A stretch of 64,000 nt of DNA, taken from assembly GCF_902810435.1 (NCBI RefSeq), contig NZ_LR778174.1, positions 979,501 to 1,043,500 on the forward strand. Direction: 5' to 3'. The translations under genes and the position numbers were made by a program. The notes beneath the pieces were generated by a model. That model was not told where the DNA came from, did not search any database, and worked only from the letters and a program-made list of their open reading frames with translations. Numbering within the stretch: position 1 is the stretch's first letter; every line of letters starts with the position of its first letter. Shown in pieces: positions 56,528 to 60,064 of the stretch. The stretch is from Veillonella parvula. Its GTDB lineage: Bacteria; Bacillota; Negativicutes; Veillonellales; Veillonellaceae.

Positions 56528-56998
56528 ATGGCAAAGAAATCTAGCCCATCGCTTATTGCTGACAATCGTAAGGCGCGTCATGATTTTCATATTCATGAAA
56601 CCTATGAAGCTGGTATTGCTTTAACAGGAACTGAAATAAAGTCTATTCGTCAAGGTAAGCTTAATCTTAAGGACAGCTTTTGTCGTATAGATAAAGGGAA
56701 AATTTTATTGTATGGTGTACATATCAGTCCGTATGAACAAGGTAATCGTTTTAACCATGAACCGGAGCGGACACGCAAGTTGTTGATGCATAAATCTGAA
56801 ATCAATAAGTTACATGCTCAAGTTAAGGAAAAAGGATTTTCTTTAGTGCCGCTAAACTTTCATTTCAGTCACGGTTATGTAAAGGTTACTGTAGGTCTAG
56901 TAACTGGTAAGAAACTTTATGACAAGCGTCAAGATATGGCGGAACGTGATGCCAAGCGCGATATTGCTAAGCGAATCAAAGAACAACAAAAATATTAA
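56528..56998 (+). CDS. smpB: SsrA-binding protein SmpB
   Basis: SmpB delivers tmRNA to stalled ribosomes. The 156-residue protein shows ARHDFHIHETYEAGIALTGT and EIKSIRQGKLNLKDSF, and ends with the basic helix KRDIAKRIKEQ that enters the mRNA channel. It is cotranscribed with rnr, and ssrA lies 2.7 kb downstream. Confidence 0.96.
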   Translation: MAKKSSPSLIADNRKARHDFHIHETYEAGIALTGTEIKSIRQGKLNLKDSFCRIDKGKILLYGVHISPYEQGNRFNHEPERTRKLLMHKSEINKLHAQVKEKGFSLVPLNFHFSHGYVKVTVGLVTGKKLYDKRQDMAERDAKRDIAKRIKEQQKY

Positions 56999-57006
56999 GA
57001 GTCATA

Positions 57007-57040
57007 AGGAATCAAGTCGATATGGCTTGGTTCTTTTTTA
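57007..57040 (+). terminator. Terminator after smpB
   Basis: GAATCAAG (57009-57016) and CTTGGTTC (57026-57033) pair with one G-T, followed by TTTTTT. Confidence 0.75.
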
Positions 57041-57045
57041 TATAT

Positions 57046-57077
57046 TTGTTAACTATAATATTTTTAGTGGTTGATAA
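57046..57077 (+). promoter_or_regulatory. Candidate BirA operator
   Basis: TTGTTAACT (57046-57054) and GGTTGATAA (57069-57077) are inverted half-sites separated by 14 bp. They resemble the Firmicute BirA box (TTGTTAACC and GGTTAACAA); the left arm matches 8 of 9 and the right arm 7 of 9, by recall of the consensus. The right arm overlaps the -35 of the downstream promoter. Confidence 0.65.
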
Positions 57078-57099
57078 AAATACAGTGAGAATTTATAAT
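57071..57099 (+). promoter_or_regulatory. Predicted promoter of the bioW operon
   Basis: TTGATA (57071-57076) and TATAAT (57094-57099) are separated by 17 bp. The -35 lies within the candidate BirA box. Confidence 0.7.
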
Positions 57100-57153
57100 G
57101 TAAACAATAAGAGGTGTTTGTAGTTGACATTTTCTAAGTAGAGGAGATATATT

Positions 57154-57654
57154 ATGAATCAGAACATTCGGTACATTACAGAGGTTGCTATTTTAACTGC
57201 CATGATTACTGTATTAGGGGCTATTAAAATACCTAATGTCATTCCAGGTATAGAGTTTCAACTATCAGCCCCGTTGGCGGTAGCGATATGTGCCGTATTC
57301 GGATTTAAAAAGTATATTATAAGTGGTTGTTTATCTAGTCTAATAGGCTTAGCATTAGGTACTCAAACTATTTTAAATGTTATGATTGCTATGCAATTCC
57401 GGCTCATTGTGGGACTAATCCTTTGGATTTGCCATAATCACATGATAGGTATTATGGTTTCTGGTCCAATTGCATCTGCTTTAGCGCGATTATCCTTGTC
57501 TTTATACGTTGGTAAGGCTGCATTACCGATGATAGCTCTCGCAGTTCCAGGTATGATCTTTACAGTAATTATGGCACCAGTATTTGTGAAAGTATTCCAT
57601 AAAATTCACAACCAAGTACCTCAAAGTAATGTAGTTAAAGGTAAGGTATCATAA
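57154..57654 (+). CDS. Small membrane protein, ECF S-component-like, in bioW operon
   Basis: This 166-residue protein has about five hydrophobic helices. The start (RYITEVAILTAMITVLGAIK, then PNVIPGIEFQLSAPLAV) resembles substrate-binding S components of energy-coupling factor transporters in size and layout. I cannot place it in BioY or another named S family. It is the first gene of an operon with bioW (overlap of one base) and bioF, behind a candidate BirA box. Uptake of pimelate, or another biotin precursor, is a reasonable inference. No ATPase or EcfT gene is nearby. Confidence 0.75.
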   Translation: MNQNIRYITEVAILTAMITVLGAIKIPNVIPGIEFQLSAPLAVAICAVFGFKKYIISGCLSSLIGLALGTQTILNVMIAMQFRLIVGLILWICHNHMIGIMVSGPIASALARLSLSLYVGKAALPMIALAVPGMIFTVIMAPVFVKVFHKIHNQVPQSNVVKGKVS

Positions 57655-58382
57655 TGGACGAATTATATAGTGTGCGTATGCGCGCGGCTCAAGGTGGTCC
57701 CCATGAAAACGGGGGCCACCATATTTCTGGCGCAGAACGCATTGTGACCTTAAATCAAGTTGGAGCTATCGCTCAGTCTTTAGCCGAACGAGCACTACAT
57801 CATAGTAAGGGGACAGCTGATTTTATCAATATTACAGTGGACTTGATTCCTTCAGAAACAATTACATATATAGAATGCTTAAAAGTAAATGAACATTTTG
57901 CTAATACTGTTGCTGAGGCGCATCAATTAGCTGTTGAACTTTTACAGGGCGCTGATATTAGTGAAACTGCTGTTAAACATGCTATTTATCTATTAGAAGG
58001 TTTAGATTCATCTATGCGAGGTGCTATGTTGGTTGACGCAATTTCTGGTGAGCGCATAGATTCTGGTAACCGTGGTGTTCGCGTGAGTCATATGGACTCC
58101 TTTGATTCTGAAAAACTAGGGGATAATGAACATATGAGAGAGGCCTTAGTATTGGCCTCTAAAGTACAATCTGCTGAAGGGATTGTAGGTGAATTATGTT
58201 GGTCTGATGATCCTGATTACACAGTAGGCTATGTGGCTTGCAATGATATTTACCATCGAATTCCTAGCATGAAAGAATTTGGATCTAATCTAGGAGGGCG
58301 TGTATTTTTTGTTAAAACAAATACTGATGTGGACTGTGTAATCAAGTATTTGGAAAAAGCACCAGTACTTGTTCAGCGGTGA
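57654..58382 (+). CDS. bioW: 6-carboxyhexanoate-CoA ligase (pimeloyl-CoA synthetase)
   Basis: BioW activates free pimelate to pimeloyl-CoA with ATP. The 242-residue protein has the family start YSVRMRAAQGGPHENGGHHI and SGAERIV, with GSNLGGRVFFV near the end. It overlaps the membrane protein gene upstream and is followed at once by bioF. BioW implies that pimelate is the biotin precursor here, instead of the BioC/BioH route. Confidence 0.94.
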   Translation: MDELYSVRMRAAQGGPHENGGHHISGAERIVTLNQVGAIAQSLAERALHHSKGTADFINITVDLIPSETITYIECLKVNEHFANTVAEAHQLAVELLQGADISETAVKHAIYLLEGLDSSMRGAMLVDAISGERIDSGNRGVRVSHMDSFDSEKLGDNEHMREALVLASKVQSAEGIVGELCWSDDPDYTVGYVACNDIYHRIPSMKEFGSNLGGRVFFVKTNTDVDCVIKYLEKAPVLVQR

Positions 58383-58386
58383 TTGT

Positions 58387-59547
58387 ATGTATAAATTCTT
58401 CCAAGAGCAATTAGATAATAAAATCAATAACCTAAATTTGCGCACATTAACGGAATATTGCCCTATAGACGCAGTACGGGTTAGAAGAGATGATAAAGAA
58501 TATTTGATGATGGCATCAAATAACTATTTAGGGCTTACTTTTGATGAACGTGTAATAGAAGGGGCCATTAAAGGGGCTCAACAATATGGTACTGGATCAG
58601 GTGGATCGCGTCTAGTATCCGGTACATTTCCCTTGTTTACAGATCTTGAAAGAGAACTAGCAAAATTTAAGAATACAGAAAAAGCCCTCGTATTTAATAC
58701 GGGTTACATGGCAAATGTAGGAACCATTTCTGCCATAGCAGATAAGAATACTATTATTTTTAGCGATGCTTTAAATCATGCTAGTATTATAGATGGTTGT
58801 AGACTGAGTAGAGGATCTGTAAAGGCTTATAACCATTGTGATGTAGACGAATTAAAGTATTTATTGAAAGAAGTAGAACGAAATACAAGAAAGCTAATTG
58901 TCACAGATGGTGTATTTAGCATGGATGGCGATATAGCTCCATTGGATAAGCTCTACGAGCTTAGCCGTGAGTATAATGCTTTACTTATGGTAGACGATGC
59001 TCATGCGACGGGTACCATTGGTAGCGGTCATGGAACGGCTGCTTATTATGGTCTTGAAAAAGAAGTGGATATTCAGCTAGGTACATTGAGCAAATCGTTA
59101 GGTTCTGTTGGCGGCTATGTAGCTGCTAATAGCACCATCATTGATTATCTTGTGAATATGAGTCGTAGCTTTATATTCTCCACTGCATTATCTCCTGCTG
59201 ACATAGGGGCAGCCCTGGCTACATTACATGTTCTTGAGTCTGATACATCTGTTTTAAGGCGACTACAAAATAATGTGAACTATATGGCAGATTGCTTAAA
59301 TTCTATAGGAATATATGCTACGAATGATACTCCAATTTTCCCAATACTTATCGGTAGTAATGAGGATACTCTAACAGTATCAAATTATTTATACAATGCT
59401 GGAATTATAGGTACAGCGATACGTCCGCCTACAGTTCCTGTTGGTGAAAGTAGAATTCGTTTAACCGTTACAGCTGCTCATAATAAAGAACAAATTGATT
59501 ATGTGTGCCAATCACTGCATAATGCTTTGAAGCAATTAGACTCATGA
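58387..59547 (+). CDS. bioF: 8-amino-7-oxononanoate synthase
   Basis: BioF condenses pimeloyl-CoA with alanine. The 386-residue PLP enzyme has NNYLGLTFDERVIEGA, GTGSGGSRLVSGT, DDAHATGTIG and the PLP lysine Lys236 in LGTLSKSLGSVGGY. The ATG at 58387 follows GCGGTG, and the alternative TTG at 58369 lies within bioW. A related 2-amino-3-ketobutyrate CoA ligase is the other possibility, made unlikely by bioW. No bioA, bioD or bioB follow. Confidence 0.92.
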   Translation: MYKFFQEQLDNKINNLNLRTLTEYCPIDAVRVRRDDKEYLMMASNNYLGLTFDERVIEGAIKGAQQYGTGSGGSRLVSGTFPLFTDLERELAKFKNTEKALVFNTGYMANVGTISAIADKNTIIFSDALNHASIIDGCRLSRGSVKAYNHCDVDELKYLLKEVERNTRKLIVTDGVFSMDGDIAPLDKLYELSREYNALLMVDDAHATGTIGSGHGTAAYYGLEKEVDIQLGTLSKSLGSVGGYVAANSTIIDYLVNMSRSFIFSTALSPADIGAALATLHVLESDTSVLRRLQNNVNYMADCLNSIGIYATNDTPIFPILIGSNEDTLTVSNYLYNAGIIGTAIRPPTVPVGESRIRLTVTAAHNKEQIDYVCQSLHNALKQLDS

Positions 59548-59677
59548 TAGTAGATAATATATCTAAATAAAGACAGTATTAAAAGAATCCTAAATTGATT
59601 GGTTAATTAGTCTATATTAGATAAATCGAGTAGTCTAAGAAGAGTGAATATATCTGAACTGTAAAGGTTTCATACAA

Positions 59678-59706
59678 TTGACAGTAATACCAAATAGGCT
59701 TATAAT
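59678..59706 (+). promoter_or_regulatory. Consensus promoter of ssrA
   Basis: TTGACA (59678-59683) and TATAAT (59701-59706) match the consensus exactly with a 17-bp spacer. Confidence 0.88.
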
Positions 59707-59722
59707 TATTAAACCGACGCAC

Positions 59723-60064
59723 GGGGATGTAAAGGTTTCGACAGGGGTGCGTGTGGTATAGATAGCGAGTCGGCGTTCCATGAGGCCGTTAAACGGTGGG
59801 AAAACATTTAAACGCAGAAGAAAATTTTGCATTAGCTGCATAAGCTACGTCCCTCATACTTGTGCCTACCAAGTGTGAATGGACGTCAAACAGTAGGCTG
59901 GTCTAATTTAGTTGTTCATATGAATTAGGCGAGACAATATGAACTGGGGTTGTGTAGCTTGTCTGTGAGCGATAGCAACCTGAGACTTAAATCATAGACT
60001 GTGCTCGGAGAAGTCTATATGGCAACACTTTTGGACAGGGGTTCGACTCCCCTCATCTCCACCA
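59723..60064 (+). ncRNA. ssrA: Transfer-messenger RNA (tmRNA)
   Basis: The ends GGGGATG (59723-59729) and CATCTCC plus ACCA (ending 60064) form the tRNA-like acceptor. GTAAAGGTTTCGACAGGG follows the 5' end, and GGGGTTCGACTCCCC is the T arm. The tag reading frame at 59814-59843 encodes AEENFALAA and stop, a nine-residue degradation tag ending in the usual ALAA. It works with SmpB and RNase R encoded upstream. Confidence 0.96.

Follow-up and report, generated by a model that had tools for sequence, protein, structure and literature searches.

A probable pimelate-binding ECF S component of the BioX family, encoded with bioW behind BirA-like operators in Veillonella

The biotin locus

From a closed 2.15 Mb genome with Veillonella as its nearest named relatives, we analysed a 64 kb window (positions 979501-1043500); feature coordinates below are counted from the start of the window, and the operon with its promoter, operators and upstream hairpin lies on the + strand. 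The window holds a compact biotin operon in the order S-bioW-bioF, where S is a 166-aa membrane protein (57154..57654) that we place, from fold search, co-occurrence with bioW and a staphylococcal homologue following bioW, as a BioX-family ECF S-component-type protein and the predicted pimelate-binding subunit. Its stop codon shares one base with the ATG of bioW, as stated in the initial annotation. The assignments of bioW and bioF were likewise upheld, as both exceeded curated cut-offs: bioW (57654..58382), 6-carboxyhexanoate(pimelate)--CoA ligase, matched PF03744 with an E value of 1e-79 and passed the cut-off of NF002360, and bioF (58387..59547) matched TIGR00858 at 461.7 bits, over cut-off. 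A consensus scan placed a terminator-like hairpin with a T tail after smpB (57006..57036), which divides the rnr-smpB genes from the biotin operon. The operon is preceded by a promoter, TTGATA-17-TATAAT (57071..57099), with TTGATA at 57071-57076, TATAAT at 57094-57099 and 11/12 consensus matches.

Two further features were observed at the locus. The biotin operon stands between smpB and the tmRNA gene (56528-60064), both partners in ribosome rescue. The 5' part of bioW contains a 10-bp G+C-rich inverted repeat (57693-57720) that covers the codons of the GGPHENGG motif.

BirA-like operators and BirA

Two BirA-like operators overlap the promoter. The first, O1 (TTGTTAACT-N14-GGTTGATAA, 57046..57077), was found as originally described, with inverted half-sites (57046-57054 and 57069-57077) 14 bp apart and the right half over the -35 of the promoter. 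In the 64 kb, a degenerate BirA-type pattern matched only at the place of O1 (0.00 expected from shuffles). The second, O2 (ATGTAAACA-N15-AGTTGACAT, 57098..57130), covers the -10 end together with the start region and is a perfect match to the core TGTNAAC-N17-GTTNACA (0.01 expected by chance). O2 was overlooked in the first reading and is both a better match than O1 and more conserved: all of the seven distinct loci scanned in near Veillonella (L003, L006-L011) kept it, and O1, conserved in part of Veillonella, was missing from two of them (L008 and L011).

Conservation of the operator was also seen across the homologues. Scanning 70 homologous loci with the pattern GTHAAC-N15-18-GTTDAC, we found BirA-like boxes within 300 bp upstream of S in 57/70 homologues, against 0.07 predicted by shuffles and 10/1673 for other tiles of the same loci. 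Most of the 13/70 homologues without a box have S within a longer operon, after bioB or bioF. The expectation that the same operator would precede bioB, bioD and bioY in this genome held in part, as one box adjoins bioB and two, one of them with two mismatches, lie upstream of bioD-bioA, but at the loci scanned neither of the two BioY genes had a BirA-like box upstream. Scanning the whole genome for operators with the gap fixed at 16 bases gave a list at chance level (6 sites per strand vs 10 for the reversed pattern), and sites from the whole-genome list were kept only if pathway context was present.

The genome encodes one BirA of the repressor type, with HTH_11 over cut-off plus the ligase domains. 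S is predicted to belong to the BirA regulon, with an operator over its promoter that is conserved in relatives and common to other bio genes. The boxes indicate biotin control, and do not indicate the substrate of S.

Fold and family placement of S

The AlphaFold model of S had moderate confidence (pLDDT 67.8, pTM 0.60; built on a 9-sequence alignment of the window and related loci only) and contained six helices, with a short hairpin following helix 1. In a Foldseek search of this model against the PDB the top 19 matches were all S components, with a probability of 1.00 for 18 and 0.85 for one, and the first match beyond these had a probability of 0.15. The matched proteins included RibU, BioY, ThiT, PanT, FolT and HmpT, and the best TM score was to BioY (4dve), at 0.68 on the query. 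S components that couple to ECF modules are recognised by a small-xxx-A (AXXXA) motif in helix 1 (PMC11109136); in that helix of S, position 12 was A/G/S in 55/55 sequences and position 16 was A/G in 42/55. We consider it very likely that the 166-aa protein is an ECF S-component-type protein.

By sequence, S fell into no established family. It had no Pfam match, neither to QueT (PF06177) nor to BioY (PF02632, none up to E 10) nor to any other family, and no Pfam or NCBIfam model scored over cut-off, so comparison with the S-component models of both collections found no S family for another vitamin into which it would fall. Resemblance to S-component models was below or near threshold: TIGR04522, and ECF_trnsprt (PF12822), which gave marginal matches in 8/55 members (best 0.0025) and none for the window protein. 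Searching solved structures by sequence, first with S alone and then with a profile of 55 sequences, returned nothing relevant. Profile comparison with the genome's two BioY proteins, which score 117-123 bits, aligned helix 1 only (34 columns, probability 34%), and kinship to BioY by sequence was dropped on account of this restriction. BioY, the ECF biotin S component, is similar to S in predicted fold and in a short weak profile match, but differs in that S lacks a PF02632 match and is tied to bioW.

Across 55 sequences R83 and R112 were invariant, position 25 was K/R and position 34 was E/D. Two absolutely invariant arginines and a near-invariant lysine would suit a dicarboxylate ligand.

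The second BioY gene of this genome (L112:2044-5022; about 1406000-1409000 of G000:C1) lies directly upstream of a thiolase gene and of a gene for a short acyl-CoA ligase of the AMP-binding type. No BirA-like box is nearby, and the substrate of this BioY may not be biotin.

Co-occurrence of S and bioW within the class

Of 380 genomes sampled from the class, 120 had S and 142 had bioW. Every genome with S also had bioW, leaving 22/142 bioW+ genomes without S. In 84/120 genomes S immediately preceded bioW on the same strand, and in 23/120 it was near bioW in another arrangement. In the other 13/120, S was on a contig other than that of bioW; some of these are fragmented assemblies. Where S was unlinked (G041, G059 and others) it lay among unrelated genes and retained BirA-like boxes of its own.

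We then restricted the set to 224 genomes with at least 90% completeness and a strong bioB. Of these bioB+ genomes 102 were bioW+S+, 13 bioW+S-, none bioW-S+ and 109 bioW-S-. With S in 102/115 genomes that have bioW and 0/109 that do not, S tracks the pimelate (BioW) route and not biotin synthesis generally. At the genus level the association gave p about 2e-14, although S and bioW are usually linked and are often gained or lost together in a single event, so that p-values overstate independence; the unlinked S cases are the stronger argument. Within genera that had clear cases on both sides (g27, g30, g57, g94, g97), S tracked bioW. Mirror-tree distance correlations among S, BioW and BioF were 0.65-0.82 and did not separate the partners.

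The bioW and bioF genes were fused in one frame of ~640 codons in several genomes (L061, L062, L087-L092, L095, L096), and many bioW genomes without S carry the fusion.

Homologues outside the class and BioX

A survey of 249 genomes of the phylum yielded confident S homologues in eight genomes outside the class, all of which adjoin bioW (8/8); 5/8 of these clusters had a BirA box as expected. An 80-genome subsample chosen to include the eight contained 12 bioW+ genomes, 4/12 of them without S. A match in one genome without bioW (G427, 6e-4) was taken as another S component and not as an S homologue.

Homologues were also found on plasmids of Mammaliicoccus sciuri, Staphylococcus equorum and S. 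xylosus (E 2e-17 to 1e-13). At all three loci the S homologue is the gene after bioW, in the order bioD-A-B-F-W-S or a remnant of it. The S. aureus operon is bioDABFWX, with bioX last (PMC12642757). From this match of position, together with homology tested on the plasmid copies, S is very probably BioX. Aligned along almost their full length, the staphylococcal proteins were 34-36% identical to S (35-38% by tblastn), and they share with it K25, E34FQ, S38AP, R83, R112, P132-G133 and T137. Like S, they adjoin bioW, and the M. sciuri bio operon has a BirA box ahead of it as here, whereas gene order differs, with bioX last in staphylococci and first in the window. The order X-W-F seen here recurs in the BioXWF operon named for Lysinibacillus (Bacillus) sphaericus (PMC11089781, which lists Gloeckler et al. 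1990 among its references), a likeness of gene order.

Two of the staphylococcal plasmid copies are annotated by NCBI as 'QueT transporter family'. These homologues scored 27 bits against QueT (PF06177), below the cut-off of 33.7, and the window protein had no match. The context of QueT is queuosine, while that of the S gene is biotin. The plasmids themselves (L153-L155; Mammaliicoccus, Staphylococcus) carry biotin operons, complete or in part, with the BioX homologue as their last gene, and one was typed as conjugative.

The ECF module

An EcfA/EcfT search of the genome was positive, with EcfA1 and EcfA2 over curated cut-offs and EcfT a cut-off-passing PF02361 match. The three genes are together elsewhere in the genome (L113), adjoining ribosomal protein genes and rpoA. 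Such grouping of EcfA1, EcfA2 and EcfT is the usual arrangement of a shared ECF module. Since EcfT occurs in almost every genome of the class (194/195), its presence does not discriminate.

Pimelate supply

A 2024 review described the pimelic acid source for BioW as unknown, both in B. subtilis and in all other strains (PMC11089781), but B. subtilis is reported to make free pimelic acid through fatty acid synthesis and to incorporate pimelate supplied from outside as well (PMC7645780). In the window's genome neither BioC nor a P450 (BioI) was found, and the latter was detected in 0/28 genomes of the family. BioC was over cut-off in 12/252 genomes, all bioW+, and its distribution was uneven: 5/13 bioW+S- vs 7/102 bioW+S+ genomes (p 0.004; 0.027 at genus level). 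BioC, through which the pimeloyl moiety can be made inside the cell, was thus enriched in bioW genomes without S, and one genome (G115) has bioC within its bioW cluster. Most S-bearing genomes therefore lack the best-known dedicated pimelate route, which is no more than suggestive in view of the B. subtilis report. The 7 genomes with both BioC and S, and the 13/115 bioW+ bioB+ genomes without S, were counted against import of pimelate by S. Since some bioW+ genomes have no S, pimelate can reach BioW by other means.

Proposed function and alternative explanations

We propose that S/BioX is probably the substrate-binding S subunit of a BirA-controlled ECF importer for pimelate (heptanedioate). 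The original suggestion of an uptake component for pimelate or another biotin precursor is supported, as a prediction, by the S-component-type fold and the strict co-occurrence with bioW. Between the two kinds of substrate pimelate is better supported, as S never occurred without bioW (0/109 bioB+ bioW- genomes). We infer docking on an ECF module, pimelate as the substrate, the direction of transport and BirA binding, as follows. S would capture traces of external pimelate, with the invariant arginines and the lysine pairing with its two carboxylates. It would presumably dock on the shared EcfA1-EcfA2-EcfT (EcfAA'T) module encoded elsewhere in the genome, and then topple, releasing pimelate in the cytoplasm. 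BioW would convert pimelate to pimeloyl-CoA, and BioF, BioA, BioD and BioB would finish biotin. When biotin is plentiful, BirA with biotinyl-AMP would bind O1 and O2 over the promoter and turn the operon off.

Alternative substrates within the same transport system are unlikely. S could act as a BioY substitute under BirA, an S component that takes biotin or one of its late precursors (KAPA, DAPA or dethiobiotin), in keeping with BioY as the best TM match of the fold and with BirA-type operators like those of known biotin uptake genes. Such a protein is predicted to occur in bioB+ bioW- genomes and in auxotrophs, but S was absent from 109/109 of the former and, across the class sample, was never found in a bioW- genome. 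The genome moreover already has two BioY proteins, and S has no match to their family. Slightly more doubtful is import of a related dicarboxylate or pimelate derivative, such as a longer diacid of odd chain length or an ester of pimelate, with conversion to pimelate inside the cell; the same co-occurrence with bioW would be expected, and the invariant basic residues would suit any diacid, but no conserved converting enzyme was seen beside the S gene, whose constant partner is bioW.

Roles other than import fit less well. Receptors, too, can have the S-component fold (PMC11109136), and S could be an exporter or a membrane sensor of biotin-pathway status; we regard this as very improbable for a protein of only 166 aa that has no kinase or other output domain and bears the ECF-coupling motif in a genome with two ECF ATPases and EcfT. 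For staphylococcal BioX, a 2025 paper states that it may be an acyl carrier protein (PMC12642757), and as such, or as an enzyme partner, it would aid BioW in making pimeloyl-CoA, as suggested for S. aureus. The constant adjacency to bioW agrees with this role, which is nevertheless highly improbable, to a degree not reached by any other that we considered, given a six-helix membrane protein with a mean hydropathy of 1.1, two acidic residues in all and the predicted fold of S components; the carrier-protein motif DS[LIVM] was present in 0/86 homologues.

Implications for biotin synthesis with BioW

ECF importers as a kind of system and the gene name bioX in staphylococci are known already. Our literature search, which omitted most subscription journals, found no report of a pimelate transporter or of pimelate uptake by one, and no earlier proposal of a function for BioX of the kind made here, although the 1990 bioXWF work may contain one. 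We lean towards the broader view that BioX is an ECF importer dedicated to pimelate, a simple aliphatic dicarboxylate, and that many BioW 'prototrophs' may scavenge pimelate. Import of pimelate by BioX, if true, would give a function to a long-standing orphan gene of biotin synthesis, and the acyl-carrier suggestion for staphylococcal BioX would fall. Such import would also account for the substrate supply of BioW genomes that lack BioC. A previous study counted 246 BioW genomes as prototrophs (PMC6593275), and such genomes would need re-reading as possible pimelate scavengers. Pimelate may then be a traded public good in communities.
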